From contig NZ_CP019724.1 in assembly GCF_002005225.1 (NCBI RefSeq), forward strand, positions 6,893,001 through 6,957,000: a stretch of 64,000 nt of DNA, given 5' to 3'. The first letter of the stretch is position 1, and every line of letters starts with the position of its first letter. The notes under the pieces were generated by a model, which made no database searches, was not told the DNA's origin, and was given only the letters and a program-made list of their open reading frames with translations. A program made the translations under genes and the position numbers. This document shows positions 7,733 to 39,989 of this stretch, piece after piece. Source of the stretch: Streptomyces pactum. GTDB taxonomy: Bacteria; Actinomycetota; Actinomycetes; Streptomycetales; Streptomycetaceae.

Positions 7733-8383
7733 ATGAAGATCCACGCCCAGGCCCTCCTGTTCGACAACGACGGAACCCTCGTCTCCTCCCTCGAGTCCGT
7801 GCGCCGCTGCTGGACGCGGTGGGCCGGTGAGTACGGGATCACGGCTCAGGAGTTCGCGCGGGTCGAGCTGCACGGACGGCCGGCCGCGGAGATAGCCGCC
7901 GACCTGCTGCCGGCGGGCGTGGTGCCCGAGGCCGTCGCGCGGATCGAGCAGCTCGAGGTCGAGGACGTACCGGGCGGGGGCGTGCACCTGCTGCCCGGCA
8001 CCAGGGAGCTCCTCGACGCGCTGCCGGCCGACCGCTGGGCCGTCGTCACCTCGGCGACCCGCCGGCTCGCCGAGGCCCGGCTCGGCGCCGTCGGCATCCT
8101 GCCCAAGACGCTCGTCGCCGCCGACGACATCACCCGCGGCAAGCCCGACCCCGAGCCCTACCTGCTCGGCGCCCGCGCCCTGGGCGTCGACCCGGCCGCC
8201 TGCGTCGTCTTCGAGGACGCCCCCGCCGGACTCCAGTCCGGCCGAGCCGCCGGCATGACCACCGTGGCGTTGGCCACAACCCACCGGCCCGACGAACTCG
8301 ACGCCGACCTGGTGGTCACCGACCTGTCGGCCTTGTCGGCACTGGTCACCGGTGCCGGAGTGGAGCTCTCCGTCCGGGGCTGA
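7733..8383 (+). CDS. HAD-superfamily phosphatase (subfamily IA)
   Basis: 216 residues. HAD motif I is LLFDNDGTLVSS near the N-terminus (the two Asp are nucleophile and general acid), motif II is the Ser/Thr in AVVTSATRRLA, motif III the Lys of RGKPDPEPYLLGA, and motif IV the acidic pair in VVFEDAPAG. The helical cap between motifs I and II marks subfamily IA, like phosphoglycolate and small sugar-phosphate phosphatases. Note DNDGT rather than the commoner DxDGV/T with Met. It is a cytoplasmic enzyme; the substrate (a sugar phosphate by analogy) is not determined by the sequence. Confidence 0.87.
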   Translation: MKIHAQALLFDNDGTLVSSLESVRRCWTRWAGEYGITAQEFARVELHGRPAAEIAADLLPAGVVPEAVARIEQLEVEDVPGGGVHLLPGTRELLDALPADRWAVVTSATRRLAEARLGAVGILPKTLVAADDITRGKPDPEPYLLGARALGVDPAACVVFEDAPAGLQSGRAAGMTTVALATTHRPDELDADLVVTDLSALSALVTGAGVELSVRG

Positions 8384-8425
8384 CCCGCGCCCCCGCGACC
8401 GGTCACCGGCCGGCCACCGTCCATC

Positions 8426-8453
8426 GCTGTCCAGCATGCGGACAGCGGTGTCC
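8426..8453. promoter_or_regulatory. Overlapping inverted repeats upstream of the metN leader
   Basis: GCTGTCC (8426-8432) pairs with GGACAGC (8440-8446), and GGACA (8440-8444) also pairs with TGTCC (8449-8453). The shared middle arm could serve as an operator for a regulator of the methionine importer, or as mutually exclusive RNA stems. It lies about 75 bases before the leader ORF. Function is inferred from symmetry and position only. Confidence 0.3.
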
Positions 8454-8527
8454 GGTCAGGAGCACGCGTCTGCTTTACTGCTCGCATGAGCACGACGAGC
8501 GACCGCACCCCTGCGACCGAGGCGACG

Positions 8528-8572
8528 ATGACGCCCGGTGCTCGTTGTATGTGCCGAATGTGCGCCTTCTAG
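8528..8572 (+). CDS. Cys/Met-rich leader peptide upstream of metNIQ
   Basis: A 14-codon ORF (MTPGARCMCRMCAF) with GAGG five bases before its ATG; an in-frame ATG at 8486 would extend it to 28 residues. Three Cys and two internal Met codons fall in the last eight positions, a layout expected of a translation-dependent attenuator that senses charged tRNA-Cys or tRNA-Met. It precedes the methionine importer by about 230 untranslated bases. Cysteine-rich upstream ORFs before sulfur genes are known in actinobacteria; that this one controls metN is inference. Confidence 0.55.
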   Translation: MTPGARCMCRMCAF

Positions 8573-8815
8573 AGGGCCCCTGCACCACCTGAGTCTCGCG
8601 CCCCGAAGCGAGCGCCGCTCGTATCCGCCACAGCGCCCCGCGCGCGCGGCCGAGCCACGCCCCGCGCACACGTTTCTCCCCGGTTCCACCGCCACCGCGC
8701 ATCGCCACCGCGAGAACCGTGCCGCGTTCCGAAGGACCCCCAAGACCCCGAAGAACAACGCCCCGTGCCCGGCGCACACCACCGCGCCGCGCACTCGACA
8801 GTGACGGAAACCCAC

Positions 8816-9868
8816 GTGATCACCACATCGGGCCTCACCAAGGTCTACCGCTCGGGCGGCCGCGAGGTCACCGCCCTGGACGGCGTCGATCTGCACGTCC
8901 GCGAGGGCGAGGTGTACGGCGTCATCGGCCAGTCCGGCGCCGGCAAGTCCTCGCTCATCCGCTGCGTCAACCTCCTGGAGCGCCCCACCGCCGGCACGGT
9001 CACCGTCGCCGGCCAGGACCTCACCGCGCTCGCCGGCCGCGGCCCCCGCGCCGGCAAGGAGCTGCGGCAGGCGCGCAGCCGTATCGGCATGGTGTTCCAG
9101 CACTTCAACCTGCTCTCCTCCCGGACCGTGCGGGAGAACGTCGAACTACCGCTGGAGATCCTCGGCAAATCCGGGAAGGAACGTTCCCGCAAGGCGCTGG
9201 AACTCCTCGACCTCGTCGGTCTCGCCGACAAGGCGGGGGCCTACCCGGCCCAGCTCTCCGGCGGCCAGAAGCAGCGCGTCGGCATCGCCCGCGCCCTGGC
9301 CGGCGACCCCCAGGTCCTGCTCTCCGACGAGGCGACCAGCGCCCTCGACCCGGAGACCACCCGCTCCATCCTCCAGTTGCTGCGCGACCTGAACCGGCAG
9401 CTCGGCCTGACCGTCCTGCTCATCACCCACGAGATGGACGTCGTCAAGAGCGTCTGTGACTCGGCCGCCCTCATGGACGAGGGCCGCATCGTCGAGTCCG
9501 GCACGGTCGGCGAACTGCTCGCCACCCCGGGCTCCGAGCTGGCCGCCGCCCTCTTCCCGGTCGGCGGCGACGCGTCCGGCGACGACCGCACCGTCCTCGA
9601 CGTCACCTTCCACGGCGAAGCCGCCACGCAGCCCGTCATCTCCCAGCTCTCCCGTACCTACAACATCGACATATCGATCCTCGGCGCCGCCATCGACACC
9701 GTCGGCGGCCTCCAGGTCGGCCGGATGCGCATCGAACTGCCCGGCCGCTACGAGGACAACGTGGTGCCCGTCGGCTTCCTGCGCGAACAGGGTCTGCAGA
9801 TCGACGTGCTGAACGGCGACACGGCGCACGAGGACCAGCCGCTGCTGGTGAAGGAAGGTGCCAAGTGA
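8816..9868 (+). CDS. metN: D-methionine ABC importer, ATP-binding subunit MetN
   Basis: 350 residues. The ATPase of the MetNIQ importer, driving uptake of L/D-methionine through MetI. The Walker A motif is GQSGAGKSS (residues 38-46), the Q-loop lies in MVFQHFNLL, the signature is LSGGQKQR (about 147), then the Walker B region LLSDEATSALD and H-loop LLITHEMD. About 85 residues at the C-terminus (from VLDVTFHGE) form the NIL domain that binds methionine and inhibits transport when cytoplasmic methionine is high. The GTG at 8816 begins VITTSGLTKVY; a GTG at 8801 is an alternative. A GTGA overlap couples it to metI. Confidence 0.95.
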   Translation: MITTSGLTKVYRSGGREVTALDGVDLHVREGEVYGVIGQSGAGKSSLIRCVNLLERPTAGTVTVAGQDLTALAGRGPRAGKELRQARSRIGMVFQHFNLLSSRTVRENVELPLEILGKSGKERSRKALELLDLVGLADKAGAYPAQLSGGQKQRVGIARALAGDPQVLLSDEATSALDPETTRSILQLLRDLNRQLGLTVLLITHEMDVVKSVCDSAALMDEGRIVESGTVGELLATPGSELAAALFPVGGDASGDDRTVLDVTFHGEAATQPVISQLSRTYNIDISILGAAIDTVGGLQVGRMRIELPGRYEDNVVPVGFLREQGLQIDVLNGDTAHEDQPLLVKEGAK

Positions 9869-10602
9869 CCTGGTCCGAGATGCAGCCCCTGCTGGAGCAG
9901 GCCTGTCAGGAGACCCTGATCATGGTCGGCTGGTCCACCCTGATCGCCGTGGTCGGCGGCCTCCCGCTCGGCATCCTGCTCGTGCTGACCGACAAGGGCG
10001 GCCTGCTGCAGAACACCGTGGTGAACAAGGTCATCGGCCAGGTCGTGAACATCGGCCGCTCGCTGCCGTTCATCATCCTCATGGTCGCGCTGATGAACTT
10101 CACCCGCTGGATCACCGGTACGACCATCGGCAGCGAGGCCGCGATCGTGCCGCTCGCCATCGGCGGCATCCCCTTCTTCGCGCGCCTGGTCGAGACGGCC
10201 GTCCGCGAGGTCGACGGCGGACTCGTCGAGGCCGTGCAGGCCATGGGCGGCAACACCTGGACCATCGTCCGCAAGGTCCTGGTACCCGAGGCGCTCCCGT
10301 CCCTGATCGCGAGCACCACGACCACGATCATCGCCCTCATCGGCTACTCCGCCATGGCCGGCACCGTCGGCGGCGGCGGCCTCGGCGACCTCGCCGTCCG
10401 CTACGGATACAACCGCTTCGAGTCCGGCCTGATGTGGGTGACCGTCGCGATCCTCGCCGTCGTCATCTCCCTCATCCAGTTCGCCGGCGACGCCACCGCC
10501 CGGGCCCTGCACCGCCGCGGCGGACGCTCGGGCGCCGCGCCCCGGCTGCGGCTGCTCAAGGCCGAGGAGCCGGCGGCGGCCGACGTGAGCAAGGTCGCGT
10601 AA
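9865..10602 (+). CDS. metI: D-methionine ABC importer, permease MetI
   Basis: 245 residues. The membrane-spanning subunit of the methionine importer, with about five to six hydrophobic segments. The binding-protein-dependent permease signature (EAA loop) is seen as VEAVQAMGGNTWTIVRKVLV followed by PEALPSL, and the region NIGRSLPFIILMVALM and IGYSAMAGTVGGGGLGDLA are typical of MetI. Its GTG start overlaps the metN stop by four bases. The lipoprotein MetQ gene follows after a 74-base gap, which agrees with a single metNIQ operon. The C-terminal tail is charged and cytoplasmic. Confidence 0.95.
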   Translation: MTWSEMQPLLEQACQETLIMVGWSTLIAVVGGLPLGILLVLTDKGGLLQNTVVNKVIGQVVNIGRSLPFIILMVALMNFTRWITGTTIGSEAAIVPLAIGGIPFFARLVETAVREVDGGLVEAVQAMGGNTWTIVRKVLVPEALPSLIASTTTTIIALIGYSAMAGTVGGGGLGDLAVRYGYNRFESGLMWVTVAILAVVISLIQFAGDATARALHRRGGRSGAAPRLRLLKAEEPAAADVSKVA

Positions 10603-10676: not shown

Positions 10677-11504
10677 GTGCGTAACACCGCCAAGATCACC
10701 ACCGCCGTCCTCGCCACCGGAGCCCTCACCCTCGGGCTCTCCGCCTGCGGCTCGGACAAGGACACCGCCTCCGACACCTCAGGTCCGCTGGTCGTCGCCG
10801 CCAGCCCCGTCCCGCACGCCGAGATCCTCAACTACGTCAAGGACAACCTGGCGAAGAAGGCGGGCCTCGACCTGGAGGTGAAGGAGGTCACCGACTACGT
10901 CACGCCGAACACGTCGACGGAGGACGGCTCGGTGGGCGCCAACTTCTTCCAGACCAAGCCGTACCTCGACGACTTCAACAAGAAGCGCGGCACGCACATC
11001 GTGTCCGTCGTCGACGTGCACCTGGAGCCGCTCGGCCTCTACTCCGACAAGGTCGACCAGGCCGATGACCTGAAGAACGGCGCGACCGTCGCGGTCCCGA
11101 ACGACACCGTCAACGAGGGCCGCGCCCTGCAGCTCCTGGCCGCGAACGGGCTCATCACCCTCAAGGACGGCGTCGGCACCACGGCGACCCCCGCGGACAT
11201 CACCGAGAACCCGAAGAACCTCGAGTTCAAGGAGCTGGAGGCGGCCACCACGCCGCGCTCCCTGAACGACGTCGACGCCGCGGTGGTCAACGGGAACTAC
11301 GCCATCGAGGCCGACCTGAAGCCGGCCGAGGACGCCCTCGTCCTGGAGTCCGCCAAGGGCAACCCGAACAGCAACCTCCTCGCCGTCAAGGAGGGCCAGG
11401 AGGACGACCCGCGCGTGCAGAAGCTCGCCGAGCTCCTCACCTCGCCCGAGGTGAAGAAGTTCATCGAGGACAAGTACGCCGGCGCCGTCCTGCCCTCCTT
11501 CTGA
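10677..11504 (+). CDS. metQ: Methionine-binding lipoprotein MetQ (NlpA family)
   Basis: 275 residues. The extracellular substrate-binding lipoprotein of the importer. A lipoprotein signal is seen in the first 24 residues: positively charged start (RNTAK), hydrophobic core, and lipobox LSAC with Cys at residue 24. The mature part shows the NlpA fold features VVAASPVPHAEILNYVK, TDYVTPNT, NFFQTKPYLDDFN and VAVPNDTVNEGRAL. AGGAAAGG at 10661-10668 supports the GTG. It is the last gene of the operon; a strong hairpin terminator follows at 11553. Confidence 0.95.
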   Translation: MRNTAKITTAVLATGALTLGLSACGSDKDTASDTSGPLVVAASPVPHAEILNYVKDNLAKKAGLDLEVKEVTDYVTPNTSTEDGSVGANFFQTKPYLDDFNKKRGTHIVSVVDVHLEPLGLYSDKVDQADDLKNGATVAVPNDTVNEGRALQLLAANGLITLKDGVGTTATPADITENPKNLEFKELEAATTPRSLNDVDAAVVNGNYAIEADLKPAEDALVLESAKGNPNSNLLAVKEGQEDDPRVQKLAELLTSPEVKKFIEDKYAGAVLPSF

Positions 11505-17945: not shown

Positions 17946-18182
17946 CCCGGCGGCGGGGCAGGAGCGGCGCGGCGGAGATCGGAGACCGTCGCCGCCGCCC
18001 TGTCCTCGCCCCGCCATCGAGTCCCGCGCTCCGCCCCGCCGTACGCGTCCCGCACCCCGCCGTACGCTGGACCGACCTCGTGCCACCTCCGCACGTCTCC
18101 TAGAATCCGCACGTATCCCCACGTCAGGGCCGCTCCAGAGCCGCAGCGCCCACCGCACCGCCAGGACGAGGAGCCCTCCCTC

Positions 18183-19415
18183 ATGGCCGAACACCCCGCC
18201 TACCCCGTAGGCCTCCGCCTCACCGGCCGCCGCGTGGTCGTCCTCGGCGGCGGCCAGGTCGCCCAGCGCCGCCTGCCCGCCCTGATCGCGGCGGGCGCGG
18301 ACGTCCGCCTCGTCTCCCCCGAGGCGACCCCCTCGGTCGAGGCCATGGCGGACGCGGGCGAGATCGCCTGGGAGCGGCGGCCCTACGCGGAGGGCGACCT
18401 CGCCGACGCCTGGTACGCCCTGATCGCCACCAGCGACACCGACGCCAACGCCGCCGCCTCCGCCGAGGCCGAGCGGCACCGCGTGTGGTGCGTGCGCTCC
18501 GACGACGCCGACCAGGCCACGGCGTGGACCCCGGCGACCGGCCACAGCGAGGGCGTCACGGTCGCCGTGCTCACCACGGACGCGCGCGGCCGCGACCCCC
18601 GCCACACCGCCGCCATCCGCGACGCGGTCGTGGAGGGACTGCGCGACGGCACCCTCGTCGCCCCGCACCACCGCACCCGCACCGCCGGAGTCGCCCTGGT
18701 GGGCGGCGGACCCGGCGACCCGGACCTGATCACCGTCCGCGGCCGCCGCCTGCTCGCCGAGGCCGACGTCGTCATCGCCGACCGGCTGGGCCCGCGCGAC
18801 CTGCTCGCCGAGCTGCCGCCGCACGTCGAGGTCATCGACGCGGCCAAGATCCCGTACGGCCGTTTCATGGCCCAGGAGGCCATCAACAACGCGCTGATCG
18901 AGCACGCCAAGCAGGGCAAGGCGGTCGTACGGCTGAAGGGCGGCGACCCGTTCGTCTTCGGCCGGGGCATGGAGGAGGCGCGGGCACTGGCCGAGGCGGG
19001 CATCCCGTGCACCGTCGTCCCCGGCATCTCCAGCTCCATCTCGGTCCCCGGCGCGGCCGGCATCCCGGTCACCCACCGGGGCGTCGCCCACGAGTTCACC
19101 GTGGTCAGCGGGCACGTCGCCCCCGACGACGAGCGCTCCCTGGTCGACTGGTCGTCTCTGGCGAAGCTCACCGGCACGCTCGTGATCCTCATGGGCGTCG
19201 ACAAGATCGGCAAGATCGCCGAGACCCTCGTCGCACACGGCAGGTCGCCCGGGACCCCGGTCGCCCTCGTCCAGGAGGGCACGACGGCCGCGCAGCGCCG
19301 GGTGGACGCCACCCTCGCCACGGTCGCCGAGACGGTCGTCGCGCAGGAGGTCAGGCCGCCCGCCGTCATCGTCGTCGGCGAGGTCGTCGGCGTCGGCCCG
19401 CACGGGACGGCGTGA
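18183..19415 (+). CDS. cobA: Uroporphyrinogen-III C-methyltransferase with siroheme-synthase N-domain (CysG-like)
   Basis: 410 residues. The N-terminal domain (about 1-155) is an NAD-binding precorrin-2 dehydrogenase/ferrochelatase module with VVVLGGGQVAQRRLPAL. The C-terminal domain (about 160-405) is the SAM-dependent uroporphyrinogen-III methylase with VALVGGGPGDPDLITVRG, the PYGR loop, VVRLKGGDPFVFGRG and PGISSSISVPGAAGIPVTHR. It makes precorrin-2, the branch point to cobalamin and siroheme (sulfite and nitrite reductases). The name cysG would also fit. A GAGG-like site lies just before the ATG. The TrmH-type gene follows with a one-base gap. Confidence 0.93.
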   Translation: MAEHPAYPVGLRLTGRRVVVLGGGQVAQRRLPALIAAGADVRLVSPEATPSVEAMADAGEIAWERRPYAEGDLADAWYALIATSDTDANAAASAEAERHRVWCVRSDDADQATAWTPATGHSEGVTVAVLTTDARGRDPRHTAAIRDAVVEGLRDGTLVAPHHRTRTAGVALVGGGPGDPDLITVRGRRLLAEADVVIADRLGPRDLLAELPPHVEVIDAAKIPYGRFMAQEAINNALIEHAKQGKAVVRLKGGDPFVFGRGMEEARALAEAGIPCTVVPGISSSISVPGAAGIPVTHRGVAHEFTVVSGHVAPDDERSLVDWSSLAKLTGTLVILMGVDKIGKIAETLVAHGRSPGTPVALVQEGTTAAQRRVDATLATVAETVVAQEVRPPAVIVVGEVVGVGPHGTA

Positions 19416-25083: not shown

Positions 25084-25087
25084 TTGG

Positions 25088-25158
25088 AGGTGGAGACGGG
25101 ATTTGAACCCGTGTAGACGGCTTTGCAGGCCGTTGCCTCGCCTCTCGGCCACTCCACC
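25088..25158 (-). tRNA. tRNA-Cys (GCA)
   Basis: 71 nt, followed by an encoded CCA (25085-25087). Acceptor GGTGGAG/CTCCACC, anticodon loop CTGCAAA, discriminator T, as expected for tRNA-Cys. Confidence 0.95.
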
Positions 25159-32028: not shown

Positions 32029-32100
32029 GGGCGATTAGCTCAGTGGGAGAGCGCTTCGTTCACACCGAAGAGGTCACTGGTTCGAACCCAGTATCGCCCA
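32029..32100 (+). tRNA. tRNA-Val (CAC), copy 1
   Basis: 72 nt, acceptor GGGCGAT/ATCGCCC, anticodon loop TTCACAC flanked by CTTCG/CGAAG, discriminator A, no encoded CCA. Identical to the copy at 39911-39982. Confidence 0.96.
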
Positions 32101-32110
32101 CCGGATCATC

Positions 32111-39910: not shown

Positions 39911-39982
39911 GGGCGATTAGCTCAGTGGGAGAGCGCTTCGTTCACACCGAAGAGGTCACTGGTTCGAACCCAGTATCGCCCA
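39911..39982 (+). tRNA. tRNA-Val (CAC), copy 2
   Basis: Base-for-base identical to copy 1 at 32029-32100 over 72 nt. It lies downstream of the carbohydrate locus, so the two tRNA genes bracket that locus as direct repeats. Confidence 0.96.
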
Positions 39983-39989
39983 CGTTCGC

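Follow-up and report, generated by a model that had tools for sequence, protein, structure and literature searches.

The methionine importer operon metNIQ lies on the forward strand of the window analysed here, a 64,000-nt stretch of the Streptomyces pactum chromosome. The gene metN starts with GTG (8816–9868) and is followed by metI (9865–10602), both identified from the ORF list and by matches to NCBIfam models, and by a metQ-type gene for a substrate-binding lipoprotein (10677–11504), identified by its NCBIfam match. The scores amount to 383 bits against a curated cut-off of 500 for MetN, 213 against 212 for MetI and 190 against 374 for MetQ, of which only that of MetI passes.

Upstream of metN, a single short ORF (8486–8572, + strand) displays the features that an earlier note on this DNA had claimed, namely 28 codons with three Cys and two Met codons near the end. 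It encodes the peptide MSTTSDRTPATEATMTPGARCMCRMCAF, with the C-terminal end RCMCRMCAF, for which NCBIfam holds no family. Its stop is separated from metN by 243 nt (previously estimated at about 230), and it is the only ORF evident between metN and the ORF ending at 8383, presumably HAD-like, as expected from the gene-free region described before.

The Shine-Dalgarno sequence formerly attributed to this ORF did not survive comparison: none of GGAG, GAGG, AGGA and AAGG occurs at positions −15 to −4 in any of the 141 loci assembled below (0/141), and an SD-led start was rejected. What the 141-locus comparison reveals is TTTACT (8474–8479, + strand), a −10-like box 6 nt 5′ of the ATG, which 136 of the 141 loci have at a spacing of 6 or 7 nt; the remaining five carry a near variant. 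Judged from this −10 spacing, the ORF looks leaderless and not SD-led, with a start of the mycobacterial type; RNA-seq of Streptomyces lividans also classes the same leader as leaderless (PMC8079986).

Distribution of the leader

Within the genus, MetN is present in 192 of 199 genomes, and the regions upstream of metN were fetched for 80 of these 192, hand-picked from the matches listed. A short, conserved upstream ORF, as is typical of leader-peptide attenuators, precedes metN in 80/80 of them. A covariance model built from 81 leaders was then run on 150 genomes of the family and matched 135 of them at E ≤ 1, many weakly; the S. pactum genome has one strong copy (158 bits), the next match scoring 17.9. 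From these hits we took a wider sample of 60 divergent ones with E up to 0.006, 55 from other genera and five from divergent members of the same genus, which covers 13 of the 17 family genera. This sample excludes second hits, weaker hits and genera g3, g5 and g10 (g17 had no hits), and is not a family-wide share. The leader ORF stands at its modelled place in 60/60 wider loci, a figure that is favoured by the selection of these loci with the leader model itself, and metN was located after 57 of them. Three of the 141 leaders (L102, L115, L121) have no metN located in frame, leaving 138 for the counts of leader composition. In L102, the frame of the metN N-terminus seems broken 3′ of the leader, perhaps through an assembly error or because the gene is a pseudogene.

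A pattern composed of the last codons, the stop and the adjacent GGGCC was also scanned against a collection of species genomes and returned at least 117 stretches. Among the 80 matches listed, 69 belong to Streptomyces, eight to Actinomadura, two to Kitasatospora and one to Wenjunlia; metN follows on the same strand in 74, and in the other six the stretch ends within 262 nt. The Actinomadura loci among the matches listed all share the last codons, the stop and GGGCC (8/8), each with metN next (8/8). Their uORF was recovered by the start filter in 7/8, with an unrelated N-terminus and the same end (e.g. CRMCDR).

Beyond the family, 36 metN loci were considered (35 from family f17 and one from f3, with two duplicates dropped; L176–L178 and the duplicate L167 are not given). 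The best Met/Cys uORF outscored dinucleotide shuffles in 14 of the 36 at p ≤ 0.05 (11 at p ≤ 0.01), several of these 14 being close relatives, and 22/36 had no Met/Cys uORF beyond shuffles. One example ends in RMCAMGGMPSMR. Met codons dominate in these uORFs, which argues that Met is sensed as well as Cys.

Selection on the last codons and the reading frame

The proposed stalling zone of the window's leader (8546–8569, + strand) reads TGT ATG TGC CGA ATG TGC GCC TTC in the codon alignment. The earlier note had named freely varying Cys and Met codons as evidence against its proposal; what we found is that every peptide (141/141) retains both Cys and Met, one or more of each, within its last 12 codons, the codon placement that is expected of an attenuator. 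Two or more Cys are present there in 134/141 and two or more Met in 115/141. Among distinct peptides, Cys makes up 23–24% of the last 12 residues versus 1.6–4.3% of the earlier ones. Single codons do change, as illustrated by the last Cys, which is replaced by Arg in 17 of 65 distinct genus peptides, and for this reason the two amino acids have to be weighed jointly instead of Cys by itself.

The Arg-Met pair near the stop is invariant. All 117 distinct peptides obtained from the 141 leaders contain RM followed by C or R in their last eight residues, and the Arg that precedes the last Met is encoded by CGA in 137/141 loci and by CGC in the other four. CGA is rare here: of the 60 Arg codons that metNIQ and the ORF at 7733 contain together, a single one is CGA (pseudocounts removed). 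A search for CGAATG in any frame located it in 137 leaders, and in all of them (137/137), those with insertions included, it shares the frame of the ATG. The alignment gaps upstream of it measure 3–12 nt and come in threes; peptide length ranges from 26 to 38 residues, and most insertions fall in the stretch from the second Cys codon to CGA. Of the 28 uORF codons, 17 have an invariant third position across the 62 genus loci that carry the 28-codon form, compared with 4 of 25 metN codons in 60 of these loci. The alignment that had been called for before returns an ORF end conserved in frame with constrained silent sites, and we regard it as well supported by these comparisons that the leader ORF is translated, with selected Cys, Met and CGA codons.

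These patterns bear on two alternatives in which the peptide itself would be the active product. In the first, the nascent chain would act as an arrest peptide, its invariant Arg-Met-(Cys) near the stop stalling the ribosome in response to a metabolite (Met or SAM) and not to an empty tRNA. The constancy of RM[CR] in 117/117 distinct peptides, the recurrence of the same end before metN in Actinomadura despite an unrelated N-terminus, and a nearly fixed distance to the stop all speak for it. However, a peptide has no need of the Arg codon itself, CGA, which is conserved in 137/141 loci; some loci have Arg in place of the last Cys, and RMC is absent from most of the best uORFs in the 36 other-family loci. 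On balance, an arrest peptide appears improbable. In the second alternative, the ORF would produce a functional small Cys-rich peptide, for instance a metal-binding one, instead of acting as a cis regulator. The CxC..C pattern of the window's peptide and the conserved peptide end are what such a product would display, but the N-terminus is unrelated in Actinomadura and g14, the last 12 residues contain anything from 1 to 5 Cys and silent sites are conserved, making this the least credible of the readings that we considered.

A predicted three-way junction encoded within the ORF

RNAalifold predicts a three-way junction over codons 3–21 of the leader, whose variable columns fall in loops. In the window (+ strand), the 5′ strand of P1 (8492–8500) pairs with its 3′ strand GCUCGUUGU (8540–8548) and encloses two hairpins, P2 (8504–8515, with 8504–8506 pairing with 8513–8515) and P3 (8516–8539, with 8516–8519 and 8521–8524 pairing with 8532–8539 and a bulged A at 8520). 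All three stems come from the predicted fold and from pair statistics, together with recoding energies for the 5′ strand of P1. Of 102 distinct 5′ parts, 75 have G-C and 24 have A-U at pair 14:56; isolated compensations are seen in P2 (in L110) and in P3 (in L110 and L128).

Covariation was examined in 27 sequences chosen to favour divergent rows, with 500 shuffles. In this set, 96.3% of the cells are paired versus 93.9% after shuffling, and 24–45% in slid-partner controls. Double changes affect four pairs versus 1.8 in shuffles (4/500 as high) and 15 cells versus 4.6 (0/500), many of them representing one inherited event, and further pair types are at chance (10 versus 9.6, with 288/500 shuffles as high). 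Folding energies add to this. The minimum free energy of the first 66 nt falls under the 5% quantile of synonymous recodings in 82/86 genus loci, 13/21 loci of genus g7 and 9/15 other loci; for the window it is −28.9 versus −18.3 ± 3.6 for the recodings. The large genus g14 has no such junction, with 0/19 loci under the 5% quantile; g14 and a few near genera possess their own hairpin, in which one pair is C-G in 13, G-C in five and unpaired in four of 22 rows. Compensatory changes and energies below those of synonymous recodings together support the view that codons 3–21 also encode a three-way-junction RNA in most lineages.

Could the junction be a ligand-binding riboswitch aptamer (for Met, Cys or SAM), the ORF being incidental? 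Its fold is well defined, its stems are nearly invariant and genes for sulfur amino-acid transport lie downstream, as such an aptamer would have it. Yet the reading frame is maintained, as seen from CGAATG, few unpaired junction bases are conserved, and g14 has lost the fold while retaining the ORF end. Rfam offers no counterpart either: its covariance models matched neither the window's leader nor those of 20 more loci of the genus, nor anything in sets of 13 and 20 loci from other families. A SAM riboswitch or another known RNA family was accordingly rejected, in line with the earlier note, which had recognised no SAM riboswitch, and we judge the aptamer reading very unlikely.

Ribosome position and the predicted fold

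The junction ends at a nearly constant distance from the stop codon. Counted from the G of GCUCGUUG, which is the penultimate base of P1, this distance amounts to 22 nt in 63 of the 81 genus loci measured and to 19 nt in 13 of the 20 g7 loci; in all 108 loci measured, out of the 141, it is at least 19 nt. The ribosome was modelled as a 31-nt mask on the leader RNA. In 85 genus loci, the modelled probability of P1 is 0.85 in the free RNA, 0.90 with the ribosome at the stop and 0.13 once it occupies the last Met codon; the value of 0.00 for the first Cys codon is a consequence of the mask itself. When positions are set for each locus, P1 goes from 0.88 in the free RNA to 0.94 with the ribosome at the stop in 81 genus loci, and from 0.72 to 0.82 in 20 of the 21 g7 loci. 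In this model, the junction can form when the ribosome stands at the stop, and cannot when it is stalled on the Cys/Met codons. The stop-codon spacing and the P1 model together provide the clearest mechanistic hint of this work, and the former suggestion that stalling changes RNA folding gains a concrete candidate fold in the three-way junction inside the ORF.

A convincing mutually exclusive partner fold was not found among the modelled structures, in which the downstream hairpin drops just from 0.86 to 0.74 on stalling. One candidate, the pairing of CGAGGC with the hairpin strand GCCUCG, was weakened by its modelled probability on stalling of 0.17 in genus loci; it reaches 0.80 in three g13 loci.

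The region between the stop codon and metN

Just 3′ of the stop codon stands GGGCC (8574–8578, + strand), found within 11 nt of the stop in 120/141 loci. It is followed by a hairpin, CUCGC-GCCCCGAA-GCGAG (8595–8612, + strand), which has no T-run and was delineated from the leader alignment and RNAalifold. Exact copies of its 16-nt core are absent from the rest of the genome, which contains one copy with a single mismatch. The loop string GCCCCGAAG occurs in 85/86 genus, 15/19 g14 and 9/21 g7 leaders. In part of g7 (L116, L117, L118, L120 and L122), the conserved hairpin is gone and a short local one is present instead, GGGC-UCA-GCCC or, in L118, GGCC-CAA-GGCC, hinting that elsewhere GGGC pairs with GCCC of the hairpin loop.

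No intrinsic terminator was detected on the + strand of 8380–8830, as the earlier note had found by eye. A classical attenuator with an intrinsic terminator was rejected, that strand containing no GC-rich stem with a U-tract; one weak match lies on the − strand. Further 3′, the leader becomes C-rich and G-poor, with a rut-like composition (8635–8785, + strand; C 0.50, G 0.26). C exceeds G 3′ of the post-stop hairpin in 137/138 loci, with means of 0.45 and 0.28, compared with 75/141 stretches upstream of the uORF. In a second control of 22 upstream regions of the window, metN's included and all resting on a rough ORF choice, C exceeds G in 12 with a mean difference of 0.03, and three of the 22, metN's among them, reach 0.17. 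By its composition, the leader has the C-rich, G-poor RNA before the gene that characterises Rho attenuators, which suits Rho without proving it. A similar stretch is found elsewhere in the window at about 18003–18162 (+ strand; C 0.51, G 0.23), before the ORF at 18183, and is possibly a further rut-like leader.

Directly before metN, alignment and duplex energies define a conserved block (8789–8815, + strand) that is partly complementary to the uORF end. It is central to the alternative of pure translation control, in which the uORF end (UGUCGA-AU-GUGCGC) would pair with the pre-metN block (GCGCACUCGACA) and mask the metN start, which ribosome stalling would release; the same has been proposed for the Cys uORFs of mycobacteria. 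The two conserved blocks are complementary in the genus set, with a mean duplex energy of −27.2 versus −22.9 ± 4.6 for shuffled sequences (about one standard deviation), and of −29.6 versus −22.2 ± 4.4 in g7. Masking the uORF end also gives the largest mean easing of metN opening of all positions (−1.06 kcal/mol in 26 genus loci). This easing is nevertheless small and does not appear in the window itself, co-variation was not seen between the two blocks, and in g14 both shuffled (−24.5) and swapped (−25.7) pairs bind more strongly than the natural ones (−23.1). The duplex modelling thus lends weak support to pairing with the metN start region as an alternative, and regulation by translation alone is possible, if doubtful; of the rivals it is the most probable.

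A probable ribosome-mediated Cys/Met attenuator of metNIQ

The reading that we prefer is that the leader works as a ribosome-mediated Cys/Met attenuator of metNIQ, a statement to which, with its junction and output steps included, we give a probability of roughly 70%. Sequence comparison supports the first part of this model: a leaderless uORF has been kept as a reading frame, selection acts on the Cys, Met and Arg(CGA) codons at its end, and the first two thirds of the uORF encode, in most lineages, the junction RNA just 5′ of these codons. A ribosome at the stop is predicted to leave space for the junction, and one stalled on the Cys/Met codons to cover the 3′ strands of P1 and P3 and hold the junction open. 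Low charging of Cys-tRNA or Met-tRNA would then stall the ribosome, keep the junction open and raise metNIQ expression. In the replete state, the junction would refold and expose the C-rich, ribosome-free leader, most likely to Rho-dependent termination; alternatively, metN translation could be held low by leader pairing. Between these outputs, Rho-dependent termination seems a little more likely than a purely translational effect, and it is somewhat likely that Cys and Met jointly constitute the signal.

The leader itself is already in print and hence not new. It corresponds to metL of S. lividans TK24 (SLIV_29928), published as a methionine attenuator leader with the peptide MSTTSDRTPATEATTTPGARCMCRRMCAF (PMC8079986). 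Both are the same leaderless leader at the same place before metNIQ, metL having 29 aa and the end RCMCRRMCAF; its published peptide is identical to those of L004, L005 and L007, and the window's differs from it by one substitution and one Arg fewer (PMC8079986). In its passages on metL, this source concerns one strain, describes a methionine-dependent leader (with 'several methionines and threonines') and calls the termination unclear, without a clear terminator; its three uses of 'cysteine' refer to other genes or belong to a reference, and other species, the junction, CGA and the C-rich leader were not found in these passages (PMC8079986). Full-text literature searches brought up no obvious description of the leader besides this one. 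Relative to the print found, what is new is how widely the leader is distributed, together with the embedded junction, the CGA-Met-Cys signature and the distance kept from the stop.

Several known systems invite comparison, here as far as the sources cited describe them. Mycobacterial polycysteine short ORFs (Canestrari et al. 2020, as cited in PMC9031893, PMC9094748 and PMC13236596) are likewise leaderless uORFs with Cys codons, have sulfur genes 3′ and bring about attenuation through ribosome speed. The present leader differs from them by its mixture of Cys and Met split by Arg(CGA), by the structured RNA inside the ORF and by the Met importer gene that it precedes (PMC9031893, PMC9094748, PMC13236596). 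In particular, their contiguous Cys codons have no equivalent in the window, where Met and Arg separate the Cys codons. Cys leader peptides have also been predicted in Mycobacterium, Propionibacterium and Bifidobacterium, with Rho suggested as a weak prediction (PMC1262725). They share with our leader the Cys codons near the stop and the lack of a conserved terminator hairpin, but consist of Cys-only runs and precede a cys operon or cbs, not metN (PMC1262725). As in the terminator attenuators ilvB1 (PMC13236596), trpL and ilvL (PMC8079986), ribosome position would select the RNA fold, here in the model only. In contrast to those systems (PMC13236596, PMC8079986), no U-tract stem is present on the + strand and a conserved fold lies inside the ORF.

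If true, the proposed mechanism shows how sulfur amino-acid supply is sensed at metNIQ in streptomycetes, where a SAM riboswitch was not found, makes Cys and Met supply readable by one leader, and brings a Met importer under the leaderless Cys-type attenuation known from mycobacteria. It would also illustrate clearly how a structured RNA and a reading frame can evolve within one set of codons, at a distance from the stop that fits the ribosome footprint. The 141 leaders offer direct targets for mutation, namely CGA, P1 and GGGCC. A wider proposal is that they belong to a widespread actinobacterial class of attenuators, in which a fixed Arg(CGA)-Met-Cys signature near the stop, and not a run of a single residue, is the sensor. 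This signature would be read jointly as codons, as slow decoding and perhaps as a nascent chain, so that the leader would integrate Cys and Met (or SAM) supply and report it via the junction in its own codons. We advance this generalisation tentatively, as a rather unlikely outcome in its full extent.

tRNA genes in the window

The window also carries a tRNA-Cys(GCA) gene at 25085–25158 (− strand), about 16 kb from metN, in a cluster that holds in addition three tRNA-Val(GAC) genes and one tRNA-Gly(GCC) gene. Two tRNA-Val(CAC) genes (32029–32102 and 39911–39983, + strand) lie 7.9 kb apart and have identical 72-nt Rfam cores, the identity extending just 2 nt to the left and 1 nt to the right of these. 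This pair could bound a duplication or an inserted segment.
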